A DNA stretch of 64,000 bases, taken from contig JAJEHL010000002.1 of assembly GCA_022823725.1 (NCBI GenBank), positions 1 through 64,000 on the forward strand, given 5' to 3'. The position numbers and the translations under genes are program-made. Source of the DNA: Candidatus Latescibacterota bacterium. Lineage in GTDB: Bacteria > Latescibacterota > UBA2968. How positions within the stretch are numbered: the first letter of the stretch is position 1; each line of letters opens with the position of its first letter. The notes under the pieces were generated by a model that was not told where the DNA came from, made no database searches, and saw only the letters and a list, made by a program, of their open reading frames with translations. Positions 47,198-63,478 of this stretch are shown piece after piece.

Positions 47198-48061
47198 TCA
47201 ATGCATCTCGTGCGTCTCCAACCCATGCACAGCTCCGGACTCGATGAAATACAACCCATACGCGAGCACAATCCCCATGAGGAAGCACACCGTGAGCTTG
47301 ACGCGATCATGACTGTGAAAATGTATTTCCGGCAACAAATCGCTCAGGGAAACACACAGAAACGCACCGGCGGCCAGGACCAGCACATAACCGACCACCT
47401 CTTCCTCCCAATGTCCCAGAAGCCCAATCCCCCAAAAAGTCAACAAAGCCACCACCGGACAGAGCATAGCGAACCCGACATTGACTGCTATACGAGCACG
47501 AAGGCTATGACCGGCGGCCTGCAACAAACCGATAATAGAAAACGCGTCGAGTGGCTTGTGCAAAAGAATCGCAAGAAACACCCCGAGTCCCGCCAAACCG
47601 GCTTCACCTTCATGTATTTCGCCAACCCGAATGCTGGTACCCAGAGCGATCCCCTCGGTCACTGTATGCAACCCCAGCCCCAGACCGATACTGATCAGCC
47701 GCCTCTTGGAACTGCTGTGTTCATGCTCGTGTTCATGCTCGTGGGGGAAATCATCTGCTTCGTCGCCAAATTCGTGCTGATGAAAATTGAAGATACGCAA
47801 CAACAACACCATCAGTATGATGCCAAACATCATCAAACCCACGGCTTTTTCGACAGCACCAGGACCGGGAATCAATACCAGACCGTGCGGCAGGAGATGA
47901 TACAGCGCGACGCCAAGGATGAACCCCGCAACAAAACTCATCACCATCTGGATGCGCGTATGCGTCATCGTAACAATTGCCGGCAAATATCCACCGAGCA
48001 AAGACGCGGCAAGAATAGCGAGGGCATATCCCAACAAAAGTATGAGAAAATTCGAATCCAC
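47198..48061 (-). CDS. ZIP-family metal transporter
   Basis: GTG start; 287 residues with eight membrane helices. The ZIP signatures are LGLHTVTEGIALGTS in helix 4 (H132) and LLHKPLDAFSIIGLL in helix 5, where the usual HxxPEG/HELGDF is HKPLDAF. The cytoplasmic loop between helices 3 and 4 has an acidic His-rich run HEHEHEHEH (107-115), a feature of metal binding. ZIP proteins bring divalent metals, mostly zinc or iron, into the cytoplasm. It lies at the end of the metal island (RND efflux, SPFH-permease fusion) and has its own terminator at 47141-47172. Confidence 0.9.
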   Translation of the reverse strand: MDSNFLILLLGYALAILAASLLGGYLPAIVTMTHTRIQMVMSFVAGFILGVALYHLLPHGLVLIPGPGAVEKAVGLMMFGIILMVLLLRIFNFHQHEFGDEADDFPHEHEHEHEHSSSKRRLISIGLGLGLHTVTEGIALGTSIRVGEIHEGEAGLAGLGVFLAILLHKPLDAFSIIGLLQAAGHSLRARIAVNVGFAMLCPVVALLTFWGIGLLGHWEEEVVGYVLVLAAGAFLCVSLSDLLPEIHFHSHDRVKLTVCFLMGIVLAYGLYFIESGAVHGLETHEMH

Positions 48062-48200
48062 AGTTTTAAACCAGAACCTGACTCACAATAATCTGAGATG
48101 GGGTAGAATGGATGAGGGGAATTAGAAAGGATGATAGAAAAATGGCAGGACAGGTATTTCCGGCACGCAATAAGACATTGGATCATTAAACTCTTATGCG

Positions 48201-48689
48201 TTAGAAGAAAATGATCAACAGAATAATACTGCTCAATCCACCAAGCAGAAATCCCACAGCACTGACAATACCGGCCGCCGTAGCGTAATCGGCGAGGCGA
48301 AAAGTCTGTTCTTCTACCGTAAACATCACCTGTGTTCGATCAATCTCGCCATCGACAAACCGTTTCAATGCATTCTCTGCACCGTGAGCCTCCTTTACCG
48401 AGACTACGGCGACCATGATCATAGCCATAGCTGATGCAAGCGTTCCCACCGCAAACATGAGCAACGTTAGCAAGGAAGCCCAGTGATAAGCGGGATCTTC
48501 ACCACCCGTGGATGCACTCATAAAACCGATAATCAACGCGGCACCACCTGCATTGCCAAACAACAACAGGCGTGCTGTCTCGGTAATCATCCTGAACATG
48601 GTACCGCGCCGCAAAGCAACAACCTTATAAAGCTCGCGCAACCACTCTTCGCCGATCTCTTCGACAGAAAATTCGTCTATATTCTTCAA
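48201..48689 (-). CDS. Small three-helix membrane protein
   Basis: TTG start at 48689 with AAGGAG seven bases before; it overlaps the TGA of the upstream binding-protein gene. 162 residues with a soluble N-terminal region (about 1-38) and three membrane helices (about 40-60, 69-97, 136-162). The charged loop between helix 2 and 3 contains VDGEIDRTQVMFTVEEQTF. I do not recognise it. Coupling with the binding protein suggests that it may be that protein's membrane partner. Confidence 0.6.
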   Translation of the reverse strand: MKNIDEFSVEEIGEEWLRELYKVVALRRGTMFRMITETARLLLFGNAGGAALIIGFMSASTGGEDPAYHWASLLTLLMFAVGTLASAMAMIMVAVVSVKEAHGAENALKRFVDGEIDRTQVMFTVEEQTFRLADYATAAGIVSAVGFLLGGLSSIILLIIFF

Positions 48690-49861
48690 GGATGATTCTC
48701 CTTTTCAGAATGATCGTCACCCAAATGGATCAACCTGATGTAGCTTGAACCCGCATTCTCACCGGATTTAAAATGAATGACCCAATCGCCAATCACGAAA
48801 GGCTTGGCTGGGGACATTGCATCTTTCAAGAACTGTTCTCGCGTCAACTCATTGCCCATACGATCCAACACAGCGATGAGATATCGGCCCAATATATAAC
48901 CCTCCAGACATACCTCATTAAATGGGTGCTGGTGGTCTTCCGATGACAATCTTATGGCTTGTTGAAACTGTCGCACAATCTGACTATCCAGATTTTGTGC
49001 GTCTGGCATCACCTCGGTCACCACGATCCTATCACTCGGCGAATGGATCCGCTTCTCCAACTCGCGGGATAAAACAAAGGACAGATTGGCTATGATGTAT
49101 TTATGTCCCAGAGAATTGGCCAGATTGATGATTTCCGCATTGGCGGCATAGGCTCCCACTATCAGAATGGCGTCCAGATCGGCTTTATCCAATGCGAACA
49201 GGCTCGCATGGACGGCATGTGTATTCCGCGAGTAGGAGGTCTTCGCCAGTATGGGAAGGTCGCGGCTATCGAGAATCTCCTTGTAGTTCCTCAAGACGGA
49301 ACGCCCGAACGCATCATCCTGATATATAATACCGAAACGACTTTTGCCGAGATCGTCAATCATGTGATGCACCAGTTCATAGATCTCGTCAAAGTAACCA
49401 GCTCTCAGATTGATGATGTGTGGATACTTTTTAGCCTCGCGCAAAAAGTCGGCCCCCGTAAACGGTCCCACAAAGGGAATCTGAGCCGTTCGCAGCACTG
49501 GAACAATGCGCTTGGCAGTCGGCGTTCCCACGCCACCGATGACGGCAAACATATTGTTTTCGGAAACGAATCTCTCTGCATTTGCGGCTGCCAGATCAGG
49601 CTCGTACGCGTCATCTAAAGAAATGAGCCTCAACAACCTGCCATACACTCCGCCACGATCATTCTGTTCCTGAAAAGCGGTCAAAATGCCGGCTCGATAC
49701 CACAAACCCAAATTTTTGTTCGGACCCGAGAAACAGGCGGTTTGTCCGAATACAATCGTACTATCAGTAACTCCCGGAGCCGCCGCCGAGGGCAGGGTGA
49801 GCACCAGCAGGATAAGACAGGAAGCTATGCCCGTCGATGTAAGCTTATTGAGCAGACTCAC
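48686..49861 (-). CDS. Orphan periplasmic binding protein (LivJ-type)
   Basis: GTG start at 49861 with AAGGAG eight bases upstream; 391 residues. A signal peptide (VSLLNKLTSTGIASCLILLV...) ends near SAAAP. The mature protein is a type I periplasmic binding fold: STIVFGQTACFSGPNKNLGL, FAVIGGVGTPTAKRIVPVLR, GIIYQDDAFGRSVLRNYKEI and AILIVGAYAANAEIINLAN. This is the Peripla_BP_6/LivJ family. No LivHMGF transporter genes are nearby; it sits between the HflK-like and a small membrane protein gene. It may be a sensor or adaptor rather than a transporter component. Overlap with HflK-like: 17 bases. Confidence 0.85.
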   Translation of the reverse strand: MSLLNKLTSTGIASCLILLVLTLPSAAAPGVTDSTIVFGQTACFSGPNKNLGLWYRAGILTAFQEQNDRGGVYGRLLRLISLDDAYEPDLAAANAERFVSENNMFAVIGGVGTPTAKRIVPVLRTAQIPFVGPFTGADFLREAKKYPHIINLRAGYFDEIYELVHHMIDDLGKSRFGIIYQDDAFGRSVLRNYKEILDSRDLPILAKTSYSRNTHAVHASLFALDKADLDAILIVGAYAANAEIINLANSLGHKYIIANLSFVLSRELEKRIHSPSDRIVVTEVMPDAQNLDSQIVRQFQQAIRLSSEDHQHPFNEVCLEGYILGRYLIAVLDRMGNELTREQFLKDAMSPAKPFVIGDWVIHFKSGENAGSSYIRLIHLGDDHSEKENHP

Positions 49862-51173
49862 TTTTTTTCTCCTTATCCACAGTTTTGCTGCTGTCCTGCC
49901 TGCTTTCAGCAGCTTTCGTCTCAATCACCGCCTGCTGGTCTGCCTGTCGCACGGTGGTCTGGGGATGGGTTGACGTGTGCTCATGAGAAAATACACTGGG
50001 CATGTCGAATATTAGTGATCTCATATTGGCGACCCTCTGGTGATGGCGTTCCACGCGTCTTTTGTGGAATTGCCCGTCCAGCAAGTGTTTGTCCTCACCG
50101 ACATTTTCAAAAGTATGTGTATCCTGCTGCCGCGCCGTTGAAAAAGAGGGCCTCTCGATAGACGGGCCGTCAACCGGAGACGCGTCCAGCAACATATCTA
50201 CGGGTGTATGCGCCGCGAGACCTTCTATCATATTGATATCGATTGTCGCCTCATTGCGGGGATTGACCGCCGACAGACTCGCTTCTGAGAAGATCGTGCG
50301 CATGCGCTGCCAGTACCGCGTGATAGCCACTTGCGTTCGTTGACTTTTGTACTCGGCGAGCAGAGCGAGGAATGCGTCGGCACTGCTTTGAGCCTGCACA
50401 ATGCGTTCCCCTGCCCTGGCACGGGCATCCATCACCACTGCCTCTGCCTGTCCCCTGCTGTGCGCGAGCATCTTCTCCCGGGTGCGGTTGGCATTGCTCT
50501 CTGCTTGCGCACGCTCGGCAATCGCATCGTTGACATCCCGGAATGCAGCAATCGTTTCTTCAATCGGGCTTATATCAACGATGTTGAGAGAAACGACCTC
50601 TACGCCAACATCGTATCCTTCAAGAAGATTGGTAATCTCGTGCAGCAGGTGGTGTTGAATGATATTGCGGTTGGAAGTCAGGATCAAATCAATAAAATTC
50701 TGCCCCATGATATTGATCAACTCTTCCCGCAAGAGCATAGAGACCACCTCAAGAGGATCGACAGTTGCATACAGAAAATTTCTCAGATTATCGATCCGGT
50801 ATTGAAGGGCGATATCCACCTCAAACAGATTCGTGTCCCCAGACAATATTGTAAAATTGGCTGTGCCGCCGCTCTTACTGGCTATCTGGTGCTGGACGAT
50901 CCGCTTGACCTTGCGAATCTGAACTTCGTCAATAACGGGGATGCAGTAGCGTATCCCGGGACCGATATTCATACTGACCACCCTGCCGAAACGCAGAACC
51001 ACAGCCTCTTCCTCTTTCTTTACGATATAGAACCCGCTACCCAACACCACAGCGAGGACAATCGCGACGAGCACCGTGATGATTCGCCTTTTGGGATACT
51101 GCCCAACGAAATCAAAAGCGGCGTAGATCATGCGCGTACTGCGCGGTAATGGTTGTTGTTCGTTCATCGTCAT
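49845..51173 (-). CDS. HflK-like SPFH (band 7) protein with long C-terminus
   Basis: The 442-residue protein has an N-terminal membrane helix (about 29-51) and an SPFH domain (about 52-290), with IALQYRIDNLRNFLYATVDP and LEGYDVGVEVVSLNIVDISP characteristic of HflK. The proline/His-rich C-terminal tail of about 130 residues (from RPSFSTARQQD) is unusual. HflK and HflC form a membrane cage around FtsH in E. coli. Here it follows an HflC-like gene and the SPFH-permease fusion. It overlaps the orphan binding-protein gene by 17 bases. The start may be the second Met (51167). Confidence 0.8.
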   Translation of the reverse strand: MTMNEQQPLPRSTRMIYAAFDFVGQYPKRRIITVLVAIVLAVVLGSGFYIVKKEEEAVVLRFGRVVSMNIGPGIRYCIPVIDEVQIRKVKRIVQHQIASKSGGTANFTILSGDTNLFEVDIALQYRIDNLRNFLYATVDPLEVVSMLLREELINIMGQNFIDLILTSNRNIIQHHLLHEITNLLEGYDVGVEVVSLNIVDISPIEETIAAFRDVNDAIAERAQAESNANRTREKMLAHSRGQAEAVVMDARARAGERIVQAQSSADAFLALLAEYKSQRTQVAITRYWQRMRTIFSEASLSAVNPRNEATIDINMIEGLAAHTPVDMLLDASPVDGPSIERPSFSTARQQDTHTFENVGEDKHLLDGQFHKRRVERHHQRVANMRSLIFDMPSVFSHEHTSTHPQTTVRQADQQAVIETKAAESRQDSSKTVDKEKKSESAQ

Positions 51174-51182
51174 AGCCCCATA

Positions 51183-52070
51183 TTACCTGGGTATAGATTT
51201 GCTGTCCAGATATTTGAATAATTCACTGTCTGCGGGCAGCATAAGCGTCGTATTTTTATCGATGATCAGATCGTAGCTGTCGAGTGCGCGGATAAACTTG
51301 TAAAACTCCGGATCTTCCCGATAGGCTTTGCCCAGCAATGCCATAGCCTGAGCCTCGGCATTGCCGAGAATAGTCGTTGCTTCCGCGTGGGCGTCAGCCA
51401 TAATTTTTTCGTGCTCATTGATGGCAAGCGCCTCGATGGTTATCGCCTTCTCTTCTCCCTCGCTGCGATAGCGGGTGGCAATGCGCGCACGCTCGGAAAT
51501 CATTCGCTGGATCACACTCGGCCGGTTCTCCACCGGCAAAGTGTATTCGACGATACCGACCCTTATCACCTCAATCCCATAGTTGGCTTTGGCAATCGGT
51601 GCGATCCTGTTGTGCATTTCGCGGCACGCCTCGTGCAGGTCTTCGTGCTCCAGCCCCAGACTGATAAACGCATCGCGTGCCCTATTGCTGATGACAATAC
51701 CGCTACTCGCAAAATAGAGTTCCCGCAAACGCTCAACGGCATTTACATCGGTTCGGATGGCTTCGACATACTTGATGGGATCACTGATACGCCACATCGT
51801 ATAACCGTCAACCAGGACATTCTTCTGGTCTTCCGTAATCAACTCGTGGGTAAGGCCATTGAGTATCTGGATGCGTCGCTCAACCTTGTATATCTTCGAT
51901 ATTGGCCACGGCCATTTGACATGCAACCCGGGTTCTTTGACGGGCGGCGCGATTTTGCCAAAGTTGGTCAACACGCCTTGTTGCGTTTCATGGATAGTGT
52001 AAAAACAGCTATACGCGATTAAACCAACAAAAACCACGACAATAGCTGTGACAATTCTTTTAAAAGTCAT
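51183..52070 (-). CDS. HflC-like SPFH (band 7) protein
   Basis: The 295-residue protein has a membrane helix near the N-terminus (residues 5-22) followed by an SPFH domain with GKIAPPVKEPGLHVKWPWPI. The C-terminal EDPEFYKFIRALDSYDLIID followed by NTTLMLPADSELFKYL is the HflC signature. GGGAG precedes the ATG. In E. coli the order is hflK-hflC; here HflC-like is first. It is encoded sixteen bases after the fusion gene and probably forms a hetero-oligomeric SPFH ring with the HflK-like protein. Confidence 0.85.
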   Translation of the reverse strand: MTFKRIVTAIVVVFVGLIAYSCFYTIHETQQGVLTNFGKIAPPVKEPGLHVKWPWPISKIYKVERRIQILNGLTHELITEDQKNVLVDGYTMWRISDPIKYVEAIRTDVNAVERLRELYFASSGIVISNRARDAFISLGLEHEDLHEACREMHNRIAPIAKANYGIEVIRVGIVEYTLPVENRPSVIQRMISERARIATRYRSEGEEKAITIEALAINEHEKIMADAHAEATTILGNAEAQAMALLGKAYREDPEFYKFIRALDSYDLIIDKNTTLMLPADSELFKYLDSKSIPR

Positions 52071-52085
52071 AATATTTTCTCCCTA

Positions 52086-54437
52086 TCAGTGCTGGGCGTT
52101 CGCGTTTGTCTTCGCCGACTTACTCTTCCACAGCGCGACCTTTTCGAGACTCCGCTTATTGGGAACGATAATTTTCGCATTGCCAGAAAGCGCGGTTTCC
52201 AGCTTCTCCCGCCATAACATGGTCTGGAGAACATTGGGCGCGCGATTCACTGCCCTGGCCACGACTTTTATCGCATCAGCTTCAGCGGCAGAAGTGGTCA
52301 CTTTTCTAAACGCTTCGCCACTCGCCTGTTCCACTTCGTAAATCGCATTTCCATGGGCACGGGGAACTAACGACGTCAGAAAACGCTGGGCATTGATGAT
52401 AATCCTCTCTCGATCTTCCTGAGAACTCGAGATTTCCCGAAAAGCACTCATTGTTTCCGCCGCCGGGTTAATACGCACCAGATTTACATCGATCAGTTCA
52501 ATACTCTCGAACACCGGGCGCGACGCCTCGACAGTACCCGCAAACAAATCTCTGACATGTTGCTCCAGACTTGCGCGATGAAAACTGAGCAGATGATCCA
52601 GATTGCGGGCGGATATGAACTCGCGCAGATGATCCTTGATGGCATCTTGAATGATCTGTTGCGGATTCTGGATCTGGTAATGATAAGTATAGGGATCCTT
52701 TACGCGATACTGCGTATTGATGGTGAGTGCGAGGATGTTCAAATCGCCCGAAATCAATTCGTACGGATTCGGGTTTGTGATGTACTTCACTTCTTTCACC
52801 GGCCATTTATCCACCTGCACAAAGGGACGGGGCGCGAGATAGGACAACCCCGGCTGCAGGTCTCGCCAATAGACCGCGCCGAACAAACGACCATAGCCCA
52901 CATGCCCGGGAGGAATCACTGTAAAACCGCTACCGAGGAACAGAGCGATCAACAGACCGTAGAACGCCTTTCCCAATGGCGTGGAGGGGGCAATAATGCC
53001 CACAAAAGAACGGTTGCGCGTCACGCGGCTCCAGAACTCTTTCCAGGGCCTGGACACAGGGCGAAGATTGAGCAATAAATCCTCGTAGCCGCTCTTAAAA
53101 GCACCTGCGCGGAACCGCCAGATAATCAGCGCGATCAGGGCAATAGCACTGCCCCATTGGATGAGTTGAATAGTCGTTGACTCCGAGGGACCGAGATACA
53201 GGGGAACCGTCACGCCAATAGCGATAAGCACAATATCGATTATAATGCCCAGAGCAACGGTAACAGCGATCACCGATGACACATAGATGGTTGCAAAGCG
53301 CGCTCCGAACTGACTGACGATAATCGCGATAGTACCCGTATTGGTCGCCGGTCCGGTCATAAGAAAAATCAGTGCCGCACCAGGGCTAAATCCCCTGGCG
53401 ACCAGCGCGGCAGCGATCGGAGTGCTCGCAGACGCGCAGATATAGAGAGGAACGCCAACCAGCACCATAACGGGATAGGACAACCAGCGCGCATACTCAT
53501 TTGACATCAAATCGCTCGGAATCACCAGGTAAAGCACGCCGCCCAGTGCGACGCCCACGAGCAACGCAAACAAAATATCGTCCGCTATCTCGACAAAGCC
53601 ATAGCGGAAAATATGCCTGACGATCTCCTTAAAATTCAAATCGTGTTTATATTTGGACGGGTCATCCTCAGAAGCTGTTTTATCCTCAGCCGGAAGCATG
53701 TCGCGATAAAAATCCGGTTTTACCCACGATCCGAATTTGTGCTGACTAACCACCTCGGTAAGCCCCTTCAACCAGGAATAAAACAACGCCTTCAACTGTG
53801 AGGGACTGACGTAGCAATCATCGCTCCCGGGCACCAGAGGTTCGTGTCCATGATCGTGATCGTGGCCGTGACTATGACCGTGCCCATGATCGTGGTCGTG
53901 ACTATGTCCATGGTCGTGATCATGGTCGTGGTCATGATCGTGGTCATGATCGTGCTCTCTCGCCCTGGCCTCGTCGCTATCATCTCGTATGAGACCGATG
54001 CAAAAAATACCGGCGACAACCGCGGTAATAAAACTGATAACGGGCCTGACAACAGCAGCGATAAATCCAAAAAACGCGTTCGTGACCAGAATTGAGTCCG
54101 CACCTGTTTCCGGTGCCGTAATCAAAAAAGACATACAGGAAGAACGGGACGCGCCCTTATTGCGCATCTCGGCAACTACTGGCACAACCGAGCAACTGCA
54201 AAGCGGCACGGGCACGCCGACAGCAGCACTTGTACTCACGGATTTCAAGCTATCTTCGCGCAACCACCGCAAAATGGCCTCACGCGAGATAAATACGTGA
54301 ATCAGACCAGAAAGAAACAGCCCCAGCATTAGCATTGGTGCTAACAACAGAAACGACATCAAGAGAAAGTCGAAGAAACTGGTCAATATTTGTATTAAGC
54401 CAATACTTGTATTAATTGGAGCATCAATAGCCCTCAC
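52086..54437 (-). CDS. Permease–SPFH fusion with His-rich loop
   Basis: GTG start (uncertain); 783 residues. Residues 1-460 are a membrane permease of the SO_0444/ArsP (DUF318) type, with VPVPLCSCSVVPVVAEMRNK (CSCS 80-83) and a second half with LYICASASTPIAAALVARGF and MTGPATNTGTIAI (360-372). A His/Asp-rich loop (162-198) lies between, as in metal carriers. After a new membrane helix (about 489-509), residues 510-745 form an SPFH (band 7) domain like HflK. The permease family moves metals, arsenic or Cu/Zn. The fusion with SPFH is unusual and its function is unknown. HflC-like and HflK-like genes follow at once. It has its own promoter at 54493-54521. Confidence 0.8.
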   Translation of the reverse strand: MRAIDAPINTSIGLIQILTSFFDFLLMSFLLLAPMLMLGLFLSGLIHVFISREAILRWLREDSLKSVSTSAAVGVPVPLCSCSVVPVVAEMRNKGASRSSCMSFLITAPETGADSILVTNAFFGFIAAVVRPVISFITAVVAGIFCIGLIRDDSDEARAREHDHDHDHDHDHDHDHGHSHDHDHGHGHSHGHDHDHGHEPLVPGSDDCYVSPSQLKALFYSWLKGLTEVVSQHKFGSWVKPDFYRDMLPAEDKTASEDDPSKYKHDLNFKEIVRHIFRYGFVEIADDILFALLVGVALGGVLYLVIPSDLMSNEYARWLSYPVMVLVGVPLYICASASTPIAAALVARGFSPGAALIFLMTGPATNTGTIAIIVSQFGARFATIYVSSVIAVTVALGIIIDIVLIAIGVTVPLYLGPSESTTIQLIQWGSAIALIALIIWRFRAGAFKSGYEDLLLNLRPVSRPWKEFWSRVTRNRSFVGIIAPSTPLGKAFYGLLIALFLGSGFTVIPPGHVGYGRLFGAVYWRDLQPGLSYLAPRPFVQVDKWPVKEVKYITNPNPYELISGDLNILALTINTQYRVKDPYTYHYQIQNPQQIIQDAIKDHLREFISARNLDHLLSFHRASLEQHVRDLFAGTVEASRPVFESIELIDVNLVRINPAAETMSAFREISSSQEDRERIIINAQRFLTSLVPRAHGNAIYEVEQASGEAFRKVTTSAAEADAIKVVARAVNRAPNVLQTMLWREKLETALSGNAKIIVPNKRSLEKVALWKSKSAKTNANAQH
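53844..53954. repeat. Tandem CAT/GAT codon repeat (His-Asp loop)
   Basis: This low-complexity stretch encodes the HDHDHDH...GHSHGH loop of the fusion protein. The DNA repeats with a six-base period (GTGATC/GTCATG). It is a slippage-prone coding repeat, not a CRISPR array. Confidence 0.9.
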
Positions 54438-54492: not shown

Positions 54493-54521
54493 ATTATAAC
54501 GTAATATCTCCTGCGCTGCAA
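54493..54521 (-). promoter_or_regulatory. Promoter of the SPFH-permease gene
   Basis: On the minus strand TTGCAG (54516-54521) and TATAAT (54493-54498) are 17 bases apart. The -10 is perfect and the -35 weak. An imperfect dyad CGTTAGATAAT / ATTATAACG (54473-54501) overlaps the -10 and could be an operator. Confidence 0.55.
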
Positions 54522-54548: not shown

Positions 54549-57500
54549 TTATGGCCGTCGCGTTTCAATCCACTCGTATATTACTGGCAGCAACACGAGT
54601 GTCAGCAAAGTCGAAGTGATCAACCCACCGACCACCACTGAAGCGAGCGGACGCTGCGTTTCGGCACCAACACCCGTCGCCAACAACAAGGGCACCAATC
54701 CGAGAATGGACGTACTCGCAGTCATCAAAACGGGACGCAAACGCAACTCCGCCCCTCGTCGCACTGCCTCTGCGACACCGAGTCCTTTTCCGCGCAACTC
54801 ATTGATAAAACTCACCAGCACAATGCCATTCAGCATCGCCACGCCAAACACCGCAATAAATCCAATCGCCGAAGGCACTGACACGTATTGTCCACTAAAG
54901 AAAAGGACCACCATCCCTCCAATTGCTGCAAACGGCACATTGGCGATAATCAGCGTGGCGTACTTAACCGAGTTGAATGCGGTATAGAGCAGCACAAAAA
55001 TGAAAAAAATCGTCAATGGCACAATCACCGACAAACGCGCCAACGCCCGCTGTTGATTCTCAAACGCACCACCCCACTCAATCCAATAGCCCGGAGGCAA
55101 GTCAATCTGCGCATCGATAGCCGCATTGGCATCGCGCACAAAGCCATCGACATCGCGCCCCCGCACATCCATCTGGATCACTGCGTAACGCTGCAATTGC
55201 TCGCGACGCACAAAAGAATAGCCTTCCGCAACACTGACATCTGCAACAGTCGCAAGAGGAACGATCGCACCATCGCTTGTTTTCAATGGAATGCGCTGAA
55301 TCGACTGCACCGACGCCTTTGATCGATCATCAAATCGCGCCGTAATATCGAATCGACGCACACCGTCAATCATAGTCGTAACCGGCTCATTGCCGATACC
55401 GGTGCGGACAACGGACAACACATCGTCCGCATTCACCCCAAACCGGGCGAGTTGATCGCGTTTGACCTGAATGCGGATCTGCGGCTTGCCGACATTGGCC
55501 TCAATCGAGAGATCCGCCACACCCTCAACTTCGGCAATGACATCTTTCACCGCCTCGCTCAACTGATCGAGCACTGCCAGATCCTCACCGTAAATCTTGG
55601 CGGCAAGCGTGGCGCGAACCCCCGAAATCAGTTCCTCTACGCGCATCTGAATCGGCTGGGTAAAAGCGACAACAGCCGACGGCACCACCACTTCCAACTC
55701 CTCGCGCATGGCCTCGGCAAGGGCCTGGATATCGCGGTCTCCGGGCCATTCGCTCTCGGGCTTGAGCGCCGTATAAATCTCCATATAATTGGCGTCGGCG
55801 GTCTCGCCTTTCTCGGCACGCCCGATCATTGCCACCGTAGTTTCAACCTCCGGGAATTGCGACAGCGCGTTCTCGATATCCTTGGAAATCTCAATCGAAT
55901 GCTGAAGCGAAGCCGAAGGTATCGAAGTCACGCGCCACATGATTGACCCTTCTTGCAGTTGCGGCATGAACTCTTTACCCAGAAACGGGAACAGCGACAT
56001 GCTCGCAACGAGCAAACCCACGGCACAGCCAACTACCACTTTTTTATTTTTCAGAGACCAAGAAAGCAAGGATAGATATCGCGGTTTAATGACGCGTACG
56101 AGCCATGTTTCGCGTTCTCTTTGCGGTTTTAATAACAAAGCCGCGAGCACGGGAATCAGGGTCAGCGCGAGCAATAAACTGCCACCCATAGCAAACGTGA
56201 TATTGAACGCCATCGGCTTGAACAGTTTGCCCTCCAGTCCCTCGAGCGCAAACAAAGGCAGAAATACCACCACAATAATCAAGATGGCAAAAGTCATCGG
56301 ATTCACGACTTCGCGGGCAGCAGCCAATACCGCATCCGTGCGGTTGACCCTCTCCGTCTCTGCCCTGCGTTCTGCCATAACGCGAAATGAATTCTCCACG
56401 ACGACCACTGCACCATCGACAATCATGCCAATACCAATGGCGAGACCGGCAAGTGACATGAGATTGGCCGAAAGGCCCGCTTCATCCATGAACACAAATG
56501 CAATGAGCATCGTGAGCGGAATAGAGACAATCACAACCACTGCGGGTCGCCATTCGCCGAGAAACAAAAACAGAATAACACCCACCAGAAGCGCGCCTTG
56601 AAATAGTGCATTCGTAGCCGTACCCACTGCTTTTTCAACGAGATCGGTACGCTCATAAATGGGGCGCAGAACGACGCCATCTGGCAGCGACTGATCGATA
56701 ATGGCGACCTTTTCCTTCGTCGCTTCAACCACCCGGGCGGCATTCTCACCGATGCGCGAGAGCACCATCCCGAGGACGACTTCCTTGCCATCGCGTGTCA
56801 CAGCACCAAAACGAAGTGCGCCTCCCTGGCGGATATCGGCGATATCCCGCAAATATACCGGCGCACCGCCTTCGACCTTAACCACCATATCGCCGATGTC
56901 GCGCTCGTTTCTAACCAGACCCAGACCGCGCACGAGGTACTGCTCTGAGCCGAGATTGATGTACTGACCGCCAACCTGGCGGTTGTTGGCCTCGATCACT
57001 TCCATGACATCGGTGAAGGTCAGGTCGTATTTGATGAGACTCAGAGGATCTATTACAACCTGAAATTGCCGCTCCTGTCCCCCCCATGAAATGACATCAT
57101 CAACGCCGGAAGCTGTTCGCAAGATCAAACGCACGTTCCAGTCGTGCAACGTCCGCAAATCCATATCGGTAATCGCCGCATTGAGCTTCTCATCCGCCCG
57201 TTCCAATGTGTACCAGAAAACCTGGCCGAGTCCGGACGAGTTGGGACCCATCTCGGGCGTGCCATAACCTTCTGGGATGCGCTCCCCTACCTCCTGCAAC
57301 CGCTCCATCACGAGACGTCGCGCGAAGTAGATATCCATATCGTCTTCAAAATAGACCGCGACATAGGATAAACCGAAGAGACTTACCGAGCGAATCTCCT
57401 TTACCTTCGGCAACCCGGCCATACTGGACTCGATGGGAAAAGTGAGAAGTTGCTCCACATCTTCAGCGGCAAGCCCGGGAGACTCGGTATAGATATTGAC

Positions 57501-57638
57501 CTGAGTGGGCGTCACATCTGGAAATGCATCGATCGGCACGGTTACAACCGCGCGCCAACCCAAAAAAGCCACGATGCCAAAGGCAATCAACACCAGGAAT
57601 TTATAGCGCAGAGAAGTATTTACCAATGCTTCCAACAT
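54549..57638 (-). CDS. Heavy-metal RND efflux pump, CusA/CzcA type
   Basis: The 1029-residue inner-membrane pump has the HME-RND opening PIDAFPDVTPTQVNIYTESP and FEDDMDIYFARRLVMERLQE. The proton-relay Asp lies in TM4 as AIGIGMIVDGAVVVVEN (D408). Two large periplasmic loops follow TM1 and TM7. CusA/CzcA pumps export Cu/Ag or Zn/Co/Cd; the TM4 sequence is closer to DGAVV of CzcA-type than to the CusA MVDAAI form, but this is not decisive. AGGAG lies before the ATG. It follows the adaptor gene by nine bases and is the last gene of the cusCBA-type operon. Confidence 0.92.
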   Translation of the reverse strand: MLEALVNTSLRYKFLVLIAFGIVAFLGWRAVVTVPIDAFPDVTPTQVNIYTESPGLAAEDVEQLLTFPIESSMAGLPKVKEIRSVSLFGLSYVAVYFEDDMDIYFARRLVMERLQEVGERIPEGYGTPEMGPNSSGLGQVFWYTLERADEKLNAAITDMDLRTLHDWNVRLILRTASGVDDVISWGGQERQFQVVIDPLSLIKYDLTFTDVMEVIEANNRQVGGQYINLGSEQYLVRGLGLVRNERDIGDMVVKVEGGAPVYLRDIADIRQGGALRFGAVTRDGKEVVLGMVLSRIGENAARVVEATKEKVAIIDQSLPDGVVLRPIYERTDLVEKAVGTATNALFQGALLVGVILFLFLGEWRPAVVVIVSIPLTMLIAFVFMDEAGLSANLMSLAGLAIGIGMIVDGAVVVVENSFRVMAERRAETERVNRTDAVLAAAREVVNPMTFAILIIVVVFLPLFALEGLEGKLFKPMAFNITFAMGGSLLLALTLIPVLAALLLKPQRERETWLVRVIKPRYLSLLSWSLKNKKVVVGCAVGLLVASMSLFPFLGKEFMPQLQEGSIMWRVTSIPSASLQHSIEISKDIENALSQFPEVETTVAMIGRAEKGETADANYMEIYTALKPESEWPGDRDIQALAEAMREELEVVVPSAVVAFTQPIQMRVEELISGVRATLAAKIYGEDLAVLDQLSEAVKDVIAEVEGVADLSIEANVGKPQIRIQVKRDQLARFGVNADDVLSVVRTGIGNEPVTTMIDGVRRFDITARFDDRSKASVQSIQRIPLKTSDGAIVPLATVADVSVAEGYSFVRREQLQRYAVIQMDVRGRDVDGFVRDANAAIDAQIDLPPGYWIEWGGAFENQQRALARLSVIVPLTIFFIFVLLYTAFNSVKYATLIIANVPFAAIGGMVVLFFSGQYVSVPSAIGFIAVFGVAMLNGIVLVSFINELRGKGLGVAEAVRRGAELRLRPVLMTASTSILGLVPLLLATGVGAETQRPLASVVVGGLITSTLLTLVLLPVIYEWIETRRP

Positions 57639-57647
57639 GCAGTTCTC

Positions 57648-58751
57648 CTAATGTACATGACCTGCGCCAAGCGAAGACTTGAGCACCAATGACTTGAGGT
57701 GGAAAACACCACTCACAGCGATCTCTTCACCTGCAATAAGCCCGCTGCGAACGACCGTCCACTCGCCCACTGTGGAACCAACCTCAACAGCCTCGGCATG
57801 GAATTCATGTCCGTCCTCGATCTTGAATACAGTCGGTGAGCCTTTGACCATTATCAATGCCGCACTCGGCACAGCGAGTACTGGTGCGCGCGTTCCGGTG
57901 ACAACCTCTACTTCGACAAACTGACCCGAATGCAAGCGATGAGCCGTATTGGGCACTTCAATGCGCAAGCCCTGAGTTCGGACCTTTTCGTCGAGGTGGT
58001 GATGAAGTTGAATGACCTTGCCTGGAAACCAGGTGATACCATCGGGGATGACCCGCACATTGGCACCAACACCAATTTCGGCTGACGTGGTCAGCACTAA
58101 ATATGCCTCCACCCACATCACCGATTCGTCGCTGATATTAATGAGTACCCGGCCAGGCTCGACCAATTCGCCGACAATAAAATCGTCCTTTAGCACCGTG
58201 CCCGCCTGTGGGGCGAGCAAATCGAAGGTACCGGTCGCTTTGCTGGCGTCTCCCGACTGCATAAGCGCCTCTGCCTGATCCATAGTCATACCGTAAGCGA
58301 GTACTTTGGCAAGAGCCTGTTGTTGTGCAACCTGCGCTTCGGTATAGCGTTGCTCAGACACAGCTTGCTGACCGAGGGTCTTGACGCGTTGCCATTCTCG
58401 ATTCGCGACAATCAATGCCCCTTGCGCTTCAGCCATCTCAACACTCGAGAGCGCCACCAGAGGTTGACCGACTTCGACTTCATCGCCGAGTTTTGCATGG
58501 CGCGCCACAACCTGTGCTGTAATGCGCGGGGTAACGAGCACAGACCGGTACGCGTTGATCACGACCTCGCCCGGAATCCGCAGGGTCTCGTTGAGCGCAC
58601 GCGGTTCAACCGTGCCAATAGCAATACCCGCCGCACGCTGTTCTTCTGCGCTCAGCTCAATTGCGGTGCCCTCATGGCCCTCCTCCTCGGCATACACCGG
58701 TTGGATCAATATCAAACACAGACACACCGCCCAAAATTTCAACATCGTCAT
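57648..58751 (-). CDS. RND periplasmic adaptor, CusB/CzcB type
   Basis: The start is the ATG at 58751 (MTMLKFWAVCLCLILIQPVY) with GGAGG five bases upstream; an upstream reading of 87 codons overlaps the TolC-type gene and is rejected. The 367-residue protein has a signal peptide ending VYAEE. The adaptor domains follow: AGIAIGTVEPRALNETLRIP, the helical hairpin VLVTPRITAQVVARHAKLGD with LALSSVEMAEAQGALIVANR, and the distal VEVVTGTRAPVLAVPSAALI. It links the inner-membrane pump and the outer-membrane TolC-like channel. The C-terminus has LGAGHVH, which might bind metal. Confidence 0.9.
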   Translation of the reverse strand: MTMLKFWAVCLCLILIQPVYAEEEGHEGTAIELSAEEQRAAGIAIGTVEPRALNETLRIPGEVVINAYRSVLVTPRITAQVVARHAKLGDEVEVGQPLVALSSVEMAEAQGALIVANREWQRVKTLGQQAVSEQRYTEAQVAQQQALAKVLAYGMTMDQAEALMQSGDASKATGTFDLLAPQAGTVLKDDFIVGELVEPGRVLINISDESVMWVEAYLVLTTSAEIGVGANVRVIPDGITWFPGKVIQLHHHLDEKVRTQGLRIEVPNTAHRLHSGQFVEVEVVTGTRAPVLAVPSAALIMVKGSPTVFKIEDGHEFHAEAVEVGSTVGEWTVVRSGLIAGEEIAVSGVFHLKSLVLKSSLGAGHVH

Positions 58752-58786
58752 CAGGGCCTCCAATGCGATTCTTTGTGTGTTGTAAT

Positions 58787-60046
58787 TTATCGGTTTGTAA
58801 GACCGAGCCAAGCATCTACCTGACCCGACGCGAGAAGCCACTCGAACCAGGCCTGCCAGACCTGACCGTGCAGATCGAGAGCACTCTCTCGCACATCTAT
58901 CGTCTGCCCTATTTGCCCCAAATAGTCGGACGTACTGAGATCCCCAGCCTGCCAGAGTCGGCGCAGTTGCTCGCTTTGTCGGTCCAGACTTTTCCGCCCC
59001 ATCTGTTCCCACTCACCCCAGGCACTGCGCGATAACTCGTAGCGCTCTGCCGCACTGGTCAGAAAAGCCTGCGCCACCTGCGTCGCATCATCGGCGAGTT
59101 GCCGCGCCTGGTCTCGCTCTGCCATGGCCGCGGTAACTTCATGTGTAAAGCGGTTCCGGATCGGAAGCGGAATGGACAGACCCAAACCGATCAACCTTTC
59201 GCCATCTTCGTATCCGCCGGTAAAATTCAGCGTCAGGTCTGGAAGCCGTTCGCGGCGTCTCAGTTTCACAACAGCATCAGCCATATTGACCCGGCGCCGC
59301 GCGGCGATAACCCCGGGTAATGCCTGCACCAGAGCCTGTGTATCAGCACTTTGATCCAGTATCTCCGGTAGTTTTTCGGGCAGAGAGGGCCACTGCGCCT
59401 CGGGAGTGCGCGGGCCAAGGCTGTACACCGCTTGCCGCGCCTCGGCCAGATCTGCAACCGTCATCGCTTTTTGAATACGCGACTCTGTCAAAGCAAGAAG
59501 AGCCTGATCGAGTTCTAACTGGTCTAACTCGCCGACCTCAAACCGGCGCTGCGCCAATGTCGCAAACTCCTCTGTCAACTGCTGGCGCATCTCGGCCAGA
59601 CGATTGCGTTCAACGCCTGTCTGGTATTGCGCGAGACCATTGAGCAAATCTACCGCAACCGCCCATCGGGCGTCCCTATATTCCGCCTCGGCAACGAGAC
59701 GGTCCAACTCCGCGACCTCAGTAAGTGCCTTGCCTTTGCCCCCCCAATCCAGCGTCTGACTAATCGATAGTGTGCGTATCCTGGCCTGTGCATTCTCAGC
59801 ATCCAGTGACAACTCGGGATTGTAAAGAGCGCGCGACGCGGCATCTCTAAGCGCACTGCTCGCTTCTAAACCCGCGCGTGCCGCCTGCACGCGATAATTG
59901 GAATCGACGACAGCTTGCACAAAACGCGTTAACGCGACACTGGCCCGGGCATTCCCCAGTACCGTTGTCTCAGCGACCAGTGTCGTCCACGACATTACTA
60001 TCAGGCCACACAATACGAAGGCGTGTCGATAGCATAGTTTGAGCAT
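58787..60046 (-). CDS. TolC-family outer-membrane efflux protein, CusC/CzcC type
   Basis: The ATG at 60046 (MLKLCYRHAFVLCGLIVMSW) follows GGAGGATGATTG, giving 419 residues. After a signal peptide (ending VAETT) the two-fold helical-barrel repeat of TolC is visible: ALRDAASRALYNPELSLDAE and LIGLGLSIPLPIRNRFTHEV. The latter is typical of the CzcC/CusC group. It forms the outer-membrane exit of the efflux system. It is the first gene of the operon, and a good promoter with a perfect -10 lies at 60108-60136. Confidence 0.9.
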   Translation of the reverse strand: MLKLCYRHAFVLCGLIVMSWTTLVAETTVLGNARASVALTRFVQAVVDSNYRVQAARAGLEASSALRDAASRALYNPELSLDAENAQARIRTLSISQTLDWGGKGKALTEVAELDRLVAEAEYRDARWAVAVDLLNGLAQYQTGVERNRLAEMRQQLTEEFATLAQRRFEVGELDQLELDQALLALTESRIQKAMTVADLAEARQAVYSLGPRTPEAQWPSLPEKLPEILDQSADTQALVQALPGVIAARRRVNMADAVVKLRRRERLPDLTLNFTGGYEDGERLIGLGLSIPLPIRNRFTHEVTAAMAERDQARQLADDATQVAQAFLTSAAERYELSRSAWGEWEQMGRKSLDRQSEQLRRLWQAGDLSTSDYLGQIGQTIDVRESALDLHGQVWQAWFEWLLASGQVDAWLGLTNR

Positions 60047-60107
60047 CAATCATCCTCCTGATGGTGACAATCAAAAGTAATCCGAAAAATTTATCGCGAA
60101 ATATATA

Positions 60108-60153: not shown

Positions 60154-61536
60154 TTAAATCTGGTGCTTTTTCCAATCGCCCTGGGCAAACTTGCGAACGG
60201 TAAGCGCGCCCTGTACAATACTATAAACAATAAGCGCGGCCCAGATACCGTAGATATCAAACCCAAGTGTAAATCCCAGGAGATATGCCACAGGCAGACG
60301 AACCAGCCACTGGGCAATCAGGGTATAATACATCGGAGGCATCGTATCGCCGGCACCTCTGAGACTCCCGCTACTCGTATTGGCCGCACACAAAAATGGT
60401 TCGGCAATGACCATCGCATAAAGGTAGATAACACCGATGCCGATCACCTCCTGTACGTCGGTAAAAAATGACATGAAAAACCCCGCAAACACCACGGCGG
60501 GAAGAGACAGGGCAATATTGGTCACAACAGAAATAAAGAGAATCGTCCAACCGTGACGCTCTGCACCTGCAGGCTCTCTCGCCCCCAAATGCTGCCCCAC
60601 CATAGCCGTTGCAACTGTGCCAAAAGCCAGTCCGGTTCGCCGCAAAATGTGTTCCACTTGATTCCCAATCGCATACGCCGCAACCGCAGTTGTAGATAAT
60701 GAGGACATTGCAATAAATTTGAGATAAACCACACCTGAGCCGTTGCGTAAAATGCCCTGTAAGCCAGAAGGCACACCAATTTTGAGAATGCGCCGCGCAA
60801 CATCCCAGTTAAACCTGTAGGACGTATCGGGCAAAAGCGTGAGCGCAAAACGCCCGCTATAAAGACACCCAAGCCCAATCAAAGTTGCCGCACTGCGCCC
60901 CAAAAGACCGCCCACAGCAGCCCCCACAACGCCCAATGCTGGCAACCCCCAGTAACCAAAAATGAGGAGATAACACATTACAATTTGAATGCTACTACTG
61001 ATCAAGCTCAAATAAAAGGGCGTGCGCGTATCCCCAGCACCCTGAAAGCAACTCGCAATCGCGCGATTCAGCGTCATAAAAGGAACACCGATAAAAAAAA
61101 CCTGTAAATACGGCGTACCCAAAGCTGCCACCTCGGGGTCAGATGTCATCGCCGGAATCAAAAAAGGCGAAAGAGCCAAACTGCCCAGACCAAAAGCAAT
61201 ACTAAACAAAAAAAGCAGGGAAAACGCCTGCTTTGCCGCTGCGCTGGCTTCGCGCATAGAATCCGCACCAATCGCCTGTGCGACCATCGTCAGTGCGCCT
61301 CTCGAAATGGACATCATCGCAGTGAAGAGCACGCGCGTAAATACCTGGGCAATACCCACCGCAGAAAGAGCGACAGGACCGAGCTTCCCGATCATAAAGA
61401 GTTGCGCCATATGCACAACTGTCTCGATCATGCCTCCCCCTGCAACAGGTAAGGTCATCCAGAGGACCTTACTGGTTAGCGAAAAATCGACTTTGCGCCC
61501 GGTGGATTCTACTGTCGTTTTGAGTGGTTTGGACAT
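60154..61536 (-). CDS. MATE-family exporter
   Basis: The 460-residue protein has about twelve membrane helices in two six-helix halves. The first half has ALSAVGIAQVFTRVLFTAMM and the second ASSGSLRGAGDTMPPMYYTL-like (NTSSGSLRGAGDTMPPMYYT) sequence, a MATE hallmark. MATE exporters move drugs or cationic compounds out using Na+ or H+. The start overlaps the end of the upstream ABC ATPase gene by 28 bases, so it is probably co-translated with a sugar transporter operon. No regulator is nearby. Confidence 0.9.
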   Translation of the reverse strand: MSKPLKTTVESTGRKVDFSLTSKVLWMTLPVAGGGMIETVVHMAQLFMIGKLGPVALSAVGIAQVFTRVLFTAMMSISRGALTMVAQAIGADSMREASAAAKQAFSLLFLFSIAFGLGSLALSPFLIPAMTSDPEVAALGTPYLQVFFIGVPFMTLNRAIASCFQGAGDTRTPFYLSLISSSIQIVMCYLLIFGYWGLPALGVVGAAVGGLLGRSAATLIGLGCLYSGRFALTLLPDTSYRFNWDVARRILKIGVPSGLQGILRNGSGVVYLKFIAMSSLSTTAVAAYAIGNQVEHILRRTGLAFGTVATAMVGQHLGAREPAGAERHGWTILFISVVTNIALSLPAVVFAGFFMSFFTDVQEVIGIGVIYLYAMVIAEPFLCAANTSSGSLRGAGDTMPPMYYTLIAQWLVRLPVAYLLGFTLGFDIYGIWAALIVYSIVQGALTVRKFAQGDWKKHQI

Positions 61537-62291
61537 GGAATTAAAAGATGTTCGGGAATACCCTGCCCCATCACCATAGCTGCGATATCGTCCTGCGTGA
61601 CATCACAGATCGGAAAATCGCCGACCTTTTCGCCGTGGCTGAGAATGGTTGCCCGATCGGCAACTTCAAACACATGGGAAATATTATGGGTAATAAAAAT
61701 AACACCTATACCTTTTTCTTTAGCAGCCGTAATATAGCCGAGCACCTTGCGCGTTTCGCCAACGGAAAGCGCAGAAGTCGGCTCATCGAGAATAAGCACG
61801 CGAGACCCAAAGTGAAGGGCGCGGGCTATGGCAATCGATTGTCGCTCGCCACCGGACAAACGGGCAACGGATTCACCGGCATTGCGAATGTGAATACCTA
61901 TCTCACCCAGCGCCGAAGCCGCGCCTGTATCCATCGCTGCCTGATCGCAAAGCGTGAACGGACCGACCTGCTTGACGAGTTCTCGCCCCAGATAAAAATT
62001 GCGTGCAATACTCATGCTCGGCACGAGCGCGAGATCCTGATAAACGGTTTCAATCCCCAGATCTCGCGCATCCTGTGGCGAGTTAAATCGAATGACCTCG
62101 TCCTCAAAATACATATCGCCTTCACTCGGCGGATAAACACCCGTAATCACCTTAATCAGCGTAGATTTGCCCGCCCCATTATCGCCTAAAAGCGCGAGAA
62201 CCTCACCATCCTCAAGCGTGAAATCAATGCCTTTCAGCGCGACAATATGCCCAAAGCGGCGACCGATATTTTTTAGCTCAAGTAAAACCAA
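61509..62291 (-). CDS. Sugar ABC transporter ATPase, single domain
   Basis: TTG start with GAGG upstream; 260 residues. Walker A GDNGAGKSTLIK, signature LSGGERQSIAIARALHFGSR and Walker B VLILDEPTSALSVGETRKVL. The CUT2/ribose-type ATPases normally have two nucleotide-binding domains in about 500 residues; this one has a single domain. The gene is eight bases after the permease and overlaps the MATE gene by 28 bases. It supplies energy for a permease of the RbsC type. Confidence 0.9.
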   Translation of the reverse strand: MVLLELKNIGRRFGHIVALKGIDFTLEDGEVLALLGDNGAGKSTLIKVITGVYPPSEGDMYFEDEVIRFNSPQDARDLGIETVYQDLALVPSMSIARNFYLGRELVKQVGPFTLCDQAAMDTGAASALGEIGIHIRNAGESVARLSGGERQSIAIARALHFGSRVLILDEPTSALSVGETRKVLGYITAAKEKGIGVIFITHNISHVFEVADRATILSHGEKVGDFPICDVTQDDIAAMVMGQGIPEHLLIPCPNHSKRQ

Positions 62292-62299
62292 ATATAGCC

Positions 62300-63478
62300 T
62301 CAGCGTTCTTTCCGCACAAAATTGTTAATCACAACAGCCGCGATCATAATAGCGCCAATAGCCCCCCTAAAAGCATTGGAGGGAACCTGCATGAGAACAA
62401 GCCCCGTGCGCAACATGCCCGTCAGCGCAGTACCAATAGCCGAACCGATCAGACTGCCATAACCCCCCGTGAGAAGCGTCCCGCCAATAACAACCGCGGC
62501 GATAACCTCAAGCTCCAACCCCGTACCGCGCAATGGATCAACGCTCTTGAGACGTGCGACCTGAATAATACCTGCAAGCGCGGCGAGAAAACCCGAAATG
62601 ACAAAATTGGTTACGCGCACGCGGTCAATATGAATACCCTGCAAACGCGCCGCCTGTGCATTGCCTCCAGTGGCAAAAACAGCGTTCCCAAAACGCGTTT
62701 GACTCAACACAATTGCAAAAACTGAAGTAAGCCCTATCCACCACAGAATGCTGGTGCGATAATTACCCGTCCCAATACGCCCGTTGAGCGCGTCAAAAAA
62801 ATCAATTTTAACCGGCATCAAAGGATGGGGTACAAGTGCCTCGAACACGAAATAAGAAAAAAAAAGAAGCGCAACAGCAATCGGGATTTTGGACTTTACA
62901 GATTGATTTCTCGCCCGCCAGATATCCCGCGCTATCCACAGAACAAGAAAAAAAAGTGCAAGTGTCAAAATAAAAACCGCAAGACCGGGCACTTCGAGAA
63001 CCGGAGACTCGCGCGAATAGTCCGCATATCGAACAATGCGTCCCCCAGAAATAGCCGTAAGAGGAATGGCGCGATACGCGAGCATCGTCCCCAGCGTAAT
63101 AATAAAAGAGGGAATACCCGTCGATATGAGAAGCAATCCGTTGATCAAACCGAGCAGACAGCCGACAATTAAACCAATTCCCGCCGCGAGTAAAATAGGT
63201 ACACCATTTACAGTTGCATAGAGAAATGCGAGAGAAGACACCCCCAGAATAGAACCAACTGAAAGGTCAAATTCTCCAGAAATCATCAAAAGCGTAATAC
63301 CGATAGCGAGGATGCCCGGAACGGCCTGACTGTTGAGAATGGATGAAATCGCGCTATGGGAGAGAAATGTATCTGGCGTGGCGAGTGCGAAAACCAAAAA
63401 TATAACAGAAAAACCCGCTGCAGCGCCAGCTTCTGGAGAGCGCGCAAGGCGGGTGCGAATAGCGTCATAAGTCTTCAA
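62300..63478 (-). CDS. Ribose-type ABC transporter permease
   Basis: TTG start with AGGA upstream; 392 residues with about ten membrane helices. The sequence GITLLMISGEFDLSVGSILG and the later VAAVVIGGTLLTGGYGSLIG (AAVVIGGTLLTGGYGS) are the marks of the CUT2/RbsC family. It is larger than RbsC because of an extra loop (about residues 175-235). It probably imports a sugar together with the ATPase and the binding protein at the right edge. A MITE-like element (63493-63675) sits just upstream, between it and the binding-protein gene. Confidence 0.9.
   Translation of the reverse strand: MKTYDAIRTRLARSPEAGAAAGFSVIFLVFALATPDTFLSHSAISSILNSQAVPGILAIGITLLMISGEFDLSVGSILGVSSLAFLYATVNGVPILLAAGIGLIVGCLLGLINGLLLISTGIPSFIITLGTMLAYRAIPLTAISGGRIVRYADYSRESPVLEVPGLAVFILTLALFFLVLWIARDIWRARNQSVKSKIPIAVALLFFSYFVFEALVPHPLMPVKIDFFDALNGRIGTGNYRTSILWWIGLTSVFAIVLSQTRFGNAVFATGGNAQAARLQGIHIDRVRVTNFVISGFLAALAGIIQVARLKSVDPLRGTGLELEVIAAVVIGGTLLTGGYGSLIGSAIGTALTGMLRTGLVLMQVPSNAFRGAIGAIMIAAVVINNFVRKER

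Follow-up and report, generated by a model that had tools for sequence, protein, structure and literature searches.

A five-gene cassette joining a predicted Cu/Zn efflux permease to HflK/HflC-like SPFH proteins is shared across bacterial phyla

Introduction

What SPFH cages contain and what purpose they serve is an open question, for which HflK and HflC with FtsH provide the best-understood bacterial case. In Escherichia coli, HflK and HflC build a periplasmic cage around FtsH. Here we describe a locus that appears to combine relatives of these ring proteins with a metal transporter. It lies in a stretch of 64,000 nucleotides, hereafter the window, from a Candidatus Latescibacterota bacterium (GenBank assembly GCA_022823725.1, contig JAJEHL010000002.1, positions 1 to 64,000 of the forward strand). 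The locus is a cassette of five genes encoding a permease fused to an SPFH domain, an HflC-like and an HflK-like protein, a LivJ-type periplasmic binding protein and a membrane protein of 162 residues (P162).

Two described systems bear on this cassette. SO_0444, whose family includes the permease, is required for growth under Zn or Cu stress (PMC3219624), and a member of the same family in Nitratiruptor is induced by Cd and Cu (PMC10092412). In Pseudomonas aeruginosa, the cluster PA2434-PA2439, which encodes HmtA together with HflC/HflK proteins, is induced 5.6-14.4 fold when zinc is depleted and carries a weak Zur site (PMC4542158); protein levels under zinc depletion agree in direction (PMC11761036). 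An older survey of SPFH proteins leaves permeases and transporters unmentioned (PMC2636767). We found no description of a permease-SPFH fusion in our searches of the literature. The PaFlo5-7 operon of strain PA14 is presumably the same locus as PA2434-PA2439 of strain PAO1. The text of the paper on that operon names no link to a metal transporter (PMC13086221).

Results

A predicted efflux permease is fused to an HflK-like SPFH domain

The original prediction described a run of six genes on one strand, the five named above and a gene for a ZIP-family transporter, and all six are present on the minus strand, five of them with short gaps or overlaps (Table 1). The fusion gene is separated from the HflC-like gene by 15 nt and the latter from the HflK-like gene by 9 nt; the HflK-like and binding-protein genes overlap by 17 nt and the binding-protein and P162 genes by 4 nt. 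Two SPFH proteins had been counted in this run. There are instead three SPFH domains, because the permease itself holds a Band_7 domain (aa 507-684) in addition to ArsP_1 (aa 19-401), and all three pass the Band_7 cut-off of 23.6 bits (60.7, 68.5 and 62.2). The HflC-like protein passes the HflC equivalog TIGR01932 (175.5 against 134.4), while the fusion and the third gene product, at 126.3 and 148, do not reach the HflK equivalog cut-off of 159.4. The latter two are therefore classed as HflK-like rather than HflK, though they lie in the HflK clade. The profile of the fused domain matches E. coli HflK of 7vhp (8.2e-21), and a transmembrane segment lies between it and the permease. The HflC-like protein and the separate HflK-like protein each carry a single N-terminal transmembrane segment and match E. 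coli HflC of 7vhp and E. coli HflK, respectively.

The fused permease scores 325.6 bits against NF033936, the 'SO_0444 family Cu/Zn efflux transporter' (cut-off 300), suggesting that the permease half exports Cu/Zn. Gene maps of genomes that lack the cassette, some of the same genus, show only an unfused permease of ~405-470 aa with a ZIP gene nearby. These homologues match residues 13-462 and stop at ...GYEDMLFNIRPLFKL, which is the fusion junction. They also lack the long His-rich loop, with 4-6 His in the densest 60 residues as compared to 8-23 in the fused cassette permeases sampled. Since the genes that flank the locus in two genus-mates (L041 and L042) are 91-96% identical to those of the window, the locus varies by the presence or absence of the whole cassette. 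Within one genus its presence is thus all-or-none, with a clean fusion junction. In another record, L043 (G049), a cassette-free stretch of 20 kb holds two unfused permease copies, both of which have a ZIP gene some kilobases away.

The cassette is conserved and moves between phyla

A P162 alignment was scanned against 84,980 genomes and returned 37 P162 loci, which span at least seven or eight phyla. The labels of the records were Latescibacterota, Gemmatimonadota, Acidobacteriota, Pseudomonadota, Binatota, Nitrospinota, Dadabacteria, Verrucomicrobiota and others. These labels are the titles given by the submitters, several Gemmatimonadota-labelled records probably belong to Latescibacterota, and bins of metagenome-assembled genomes (MAGs) may contain foreign contigs; several cassette loci sit in chromosome-size contigs. 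The binding protein was directly upstream of P162 in 37/37 loci, and the order fusion-HflC-HflK-binding protein-P162 was identical in all 31 loci with enough contig, a run beyond chance. Two of these 31 (L055 and L082) have split reading frames. The fusion is kept in every complete locus, the copy in L055 being the one with the split frame. A ZIP gene came next on the same strand in 22 of the 37 loci and was convergent in 2; no ZIP gene was recognised in the remainder. The prediction that P162 and the binding protein keep company with SPFH genes beyond the window was borne out by this neighbourhood survey, since the genes were found together elsewhere.

Within the phylum of the window, P162 occurs in 15 of 64 genomes. 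The fusion recurs there in genus-mates and in other families, most of which have the order fusion-HflC-HflK-binding protein-P162-ZIP. P162 was present in 2/247 Acidobacteriota and was not found in 397 other Pseudomonadota, and searches of plasmids returned no cassette. While rpoB identity to the window genome falls from 80% within the same order to 48-52% in other phyla, the cassette proteins across these phyla are mostly 52-75% identical; against the window proteins the ranges are 69-76% for HflC, 64-77% for P162 and 61-74% for the permease. Because the cassette proteins stay similar as rpoB drops, we conclude that the cassette moves horizontally. A tree of the concatenated cassette likewise has well-supported branches that split Acidobacteriota and Latescibacterota. 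We are highly confident that the five genes form a real, conserved and horizontally moving unit.

Clear transfer across phyla would also be expected if the genes only travelled together on mobile DNA among symbionts and had no joint function. We regard this as very improbable in view of the strict gene order, the conserved overlaps and the covalent fusion, and P162 was never found without its partners in the genomes searched. As for the hosts, records with jk18x..bins names are MAGs from Ircinia sponges, and the paper on these MAGs names the Opitutales MAG in which L059 lies (PMC9531527). The p16x records share the name style and accession series of these MAGs, which suggests a similar origin. 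Most other cassette records are, we assume, sponge-derived as well, and the carriers of the cassette are likely linked to sponges.

Relatives of the cassette are paired with zinc importers

A sister operon with the order permease::SPFH-HflC-HflK-ZnuA-ZnuC-ZnuB was found in three Binatia-type genomes, two of which carry a further ZnuA. Sites of this operon are L065:9520-17805, L117, L118 and L119, and in three genomes it lies near a five-gene cassette on the opposite strand. In Nitrospinota, ZnuA is directly upstream of the cassette itself. The repeated pairing of the cassette and its relatives with zinc importers (ZIP, ZnuA and ZnuABC) supports a function in metals, and we consider it probable that the cassette works in metal handling, with zinc the most likely metal.

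Other SPFH genes were seen with transporters of several kinds. In L159, permease::SPFH-HflC-HflK lies close to a pair of MacB-like ABC genes. Two Bryobacterales loci (L115:5245-10780 and L116:5888-10920) encode a P-type ATPase::SPFH fusion of 1013 aa and then two SPFH genes, the first of whose products has a His-rich N-terminus; L115 also has a 170-aa orphan. The conjugative plasmid NZ_CP018172.1 of Aquibium oceanicum (L137) carries HflK-HflC-HflK with a peptidyl-prolyl isomerase and a heavy-metal P-type ATPase, near copper chaperones (PCu(A)C and SCO genes). On the Vibrio parahaemolyticus plasmid NZ_CP013250.1 (L138), HflK-HflC stands immediately before nhaA, a Na+/H+ antiporter gene.

The importers could also mean that the cassette is an uptake module, in which the ring would be a chamber in the periplasm, for holding or loading, where scarce zinc is concentrated for ZIP, ZnuABC or HmtA. 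The binding protein would then carry a metal chelate, and the fused permease would be a safety valve or run inward. The sister operon terminates in ZnuA-ZnuC-ZnuB, ZIP is the commonest next gene, and the HflK/C genes linked to HmtA rise under zinc depletion, all of which would fit. We nevertheless think such a module rather unlikely, since the characterised member of the permease family protects against excess Zn and Cu and the cassette of the window adjoins a CusA/CzcA-type pump.

Metal-linked HflC-like proteins branch apart from canonical HflC

We constructed a tree of 49 SPFH domains, in which some joins fall on long branches and are less sure. The fused, ArsP_1-linked domains, from both the cassette and the sister operons, group inside the HflK clade (support 95/88), and the HflC partners in the cassette, sister and related metal operons branch apart from canonical HflC (97/94). 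At every position of the window-type cassette the domains form a single clade (100/100), and the HflC and first HflK of Aquibium group with the cassette. When further metal-linked trios were sought in Pseudomonadota with the Aquibium HflC, 20/20 loci read were canonical HflK/HflC pairs. These loci serve as a control, in that all 20 hold two SPFH genes and no P-type ATPase.

The clear kinship with HflK/HflC, which modulate FtsH, allows an explanation by quality control: the ring could govern the turnover of the fused transporter, and perhaps of ZIP, by FtsH, with the binding protein as a stress sensor. This is improbable in our view, as the cassette has no protease gene and the window genome has a separate canonical HflK/HflC pair, which is on another contig and on a separate branch of the tree.

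The binding protein, P162 and ZIP

The original prediction noted a binding protein without an ABC transporter, a small three-helix protein and a metal importer with a His-rich loop, and these descriptions hold. The binding protein passes Peripla_BP_6 (151.1 against 31.7); its closest solved structure is 4kv7 and its nearest solved relatives are LivJ-type. No cognate ABC permease or ATPase is present among the cassette genes. The ABC genes at 61509-63478 were considered as its transporter and rejected because they are retained where the cassette is absent; around cassettes in other phyla, no counterpart of the ABC permease gene (62300-63478) turned up. The strict linkage of the binding protein and the missing ABC partner are compatible with a periplasmic sensor that acts with the ring, and a sensor role is made plausible by a paralogue of 40% identity at L054:12754-16543 that adjoins a TorS-like histidine kinase and a HATPase_c_2 protein. 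The context of this paralogue suggests that the binding-protein family serves as sensors.

As the binding protein resembles amino-acid binders and ArsP_1 is a broad permease family, the cassette could export another solute, such as an organoarsenical or a metal-organic complex, with the LivJ-type protein sensing that solute or a related amino acid. We give this only an outside chance when set against the score of the permease in a curated Cu/Zn family, the His-rich loops and the recurrent zinc-importer partners.

P162 has three predicted transmembrane helices and no match in Pfam or NCBIfam. Its column identity averages 72% across phyla with a highly conserved N-terminal region, and in the genomes searched it was seen only with the cassette partners. 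A helical model was obtained (pLDDT 76), and its fold comparison gave nothing above the noise of helical bundles. The ZIP protein passes PF02535 (80.8 against 35.1) and fails the ZupT equivalog cut-off (36.2 against 252). In two Acidobacteriota loci (L063:9518-10129 and L160:8225-8824), P162 is followed by a membrane protein of ~200 aa with an HxFLEGAAL motif and no Pfam match, which looks ZIP-like by eye and may replace ZIP.

Gene layout and neighbouring genes

Table 1. Features of the cassette and its neighbours in the window.
Feature	Position	Strand	Basis
Permease::SPFH fusion, 783 aa, GTG start	52086..54437	-	ArsP_1 4.6e-45, Band_7 2.4e-16
Permease half, ~aa 1-460	53058..54437	-	unfused homologues stop here
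His-rich loop of permease, ~aa 162-199	53841..53954	-	19 His in densest 60 residues
HflK-clade SPFH half of fusion, own transmembrane segment, ~aa 485-783	52086..52985	-	profile match, tree
HflC-like SPFH protein, 295 aa	51183..52070	-	TIGR01932 175.5 bits
HflK-like SPFH protein, 442 aa, C-terminal extension	49845..51173	-	Band_7 8.7e-17; HflK clade
LivJ-type periplasmic binding protein, 391 aa, Sec-type signal peptide	48686..49861	-	Peripla_BP_6 8.5e-44
P162, orphan membrane protein, 162 aa, three predicted transmembrane helices	48201..48689	-	hydropathy
ZIP-family transporter, His-rich loop	47198..48061	-	PF02535 1.4e-22
CusA/CzcA-family RND pump	54549..57638	-	TIGR00914 1067.5 bits, cut-off 701
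RND periplasmic adaptor	57648-59012	-	HlyD_D23
RND outer-membrane factor	58787-60049	-	OEP
Possible promoter TTGCAG-N17-TATAAT before fusion gene	54493..54521	-	read directly; weak -35, perfect -10

The binding protein probably begins at the GTG at 49861, where the reading frame has a good ribosome site, rather than at the start of the longest open reading frame. The ZIP gene starts 139 nt beyond P162. Upstream of the fusion gene, by 111 nt, lies an RND set of the CusA/CzcA type, which is complete in the window and often absent beside cassettes. The RND pump of the window and those of L064, L068 and L071 are 83-84% identical between Latescibacterota and Gammaproteobacteria, with 84% for the pumps near the cassettes of two Gammaproteobacteria, and rpoB between these genomes is ~48-51% identical where measured; by this comparison the pump, too, has been transferred across phyla.

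The candidate promoter before the fusion gene is also present in two genus-mates (L048 and L050) and was missed by a consensus promoter scan. A palindrome, AGACGATATATCGTCT, was seen ~65-100 bases 5' of the fusion gene in L029, L051 and L073, perfect in two genus-mates and with one mismatch in L029, and not in the window; it may serve as an operator or be a small mobile repeat. Phosphate transporters lie near the cassette in several phyla, namely Na/Pi cotransporters by Pfam (L065:1694-2881 and L080:1606-2754) or by sequence likeness (L063:16561-17925) and PHO4 (L070:10262-11641). They are possibly tied to metal-phosphate uptake.

Discussion

We tentatively propose, with confidence just short of even, that the cassette specifies a metal exporter incorporated into an SPFH cage. 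The SO_0444-type permease would move metal out of the cytoplasm, most likely Zn and perhaps Cu, and its His-rich loop, the membrane side of which is itself a prediction, would gather the ions. In a ring that the HflC-like protein and the second HflK-like protein would complete, the fused HflK-like domain would take the places of HflK. With two K-like proteins and one C-like protein, the K types could therefore share the K positions of an alternating K/C ring. The pump would act inside or at the rim of the fenced membrane patch with the periplasmic dome above it. The secreted LivJ-type protein, sharing the periplasm with the cage, may dock there and report or buffer a periplasmic ligand, and P162 may link or anchor it to the assembly. 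ZIP, or ZnuABC in the sister operon, would bring in the same metal such that efflux and uptake are balanced. The zinc substrate, the direction of transport, the mixed geometry of the ring, the place of the permease in the cage, the ligand and sensor role of the binding protein and the role of P162 are all inferences.

Several observations weigh against this proposal. Zinc starvation induces the P. aeruginosa cluster along with an importer, a pattern that speaks more for uptake than for efflux. Some cassettes had no recognised ZIP or other importer next to them. No metal site is evident in the binding protein, whose conserved residues resemble those of amino-acid binders more than a metal site. 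No conserved Zur/Fur-type box was found in the regions upstream of the cassette in the window and its relatives. Finally, the AlphaFold model of the fusion is poor in its permease part (mean pLDDT 60, as compared to ~75-86 for most of the SPFH domain), so it gives no support for where the pump would sit with respect to the ring.

There is good support for the original prediction of a membrane ring in a metal-homeostasis module, although the unit is the five genes. The efflux and import genes had been thought to flank the SPFH block. Instead, the exporter is covalently part of the putative ring, and the RND and ZIP genes often adjoin the cassette but are separable from it.

More broadly, the cassette and its relatives could belong to a general, unrecognised SPFH class, in which K-C-K rings serve metal transporters, pumps of the ArsP_1 and P-type ATPase kinds have been fused independently, and a metal-exchange compartment is fenced off; its most elaborate form would be controlled by the binding protein and P162 and circulate among sponge symbionts of many phyla. 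We hold this generalisation to be somewhat unlikely as it stands. A transporter covalently joined to a ring subunit tells the purpose of the ring and allows a direct test of the fencing of membrane enzymes. The fusion cassette also suggests why HflK/C genes occur among the zinc-starvation genes of Pseudomonas, and it points to metal handling as a trait spread by horizontal transfer among sponge-associated bacteria.

Among known systems, the cassette resembles HflK/HflC-FtsH of E. coli (7vhp, 7wi3) in that both have K-type and C-type paralogues, which combine a single transmembrane segment with an SPFH domain. The cassette differs in that three genes are arranged K-C-K, one K is fused to a transporter, and the binding protein and P162 take the place of FtsH. 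The HmtA-HflK/C cluster PA2434-PA2439 likewise has SPFH genes next to a Zn/Cu transporter and is zinc-responsive, but its transporter is an unfused P-type ATPase and no binding protein or P162 is reported. The permease shares with the SO_0444-family Cu/Zn efflux transporters a score above the cut-off, the PLCSC motif and the membrane domain, and departs from them by its C-terminal SPFH fusion and long His-rich loop. The binding protein belongs to the Peripla_BP_6 fold family, as do LivJ-type substrate-binding proteins (4kv7), whereas the cassette lacks the cognate ABC transporter of LivJ-type systems. The Binatia permease::SPFH-HflC-HflK-ZnuABC operon has the fusion, HflC and HflK in the same order as the cassette; there, ZnuABC replaces the binding protein and P162, and the permease is without the long His loop.

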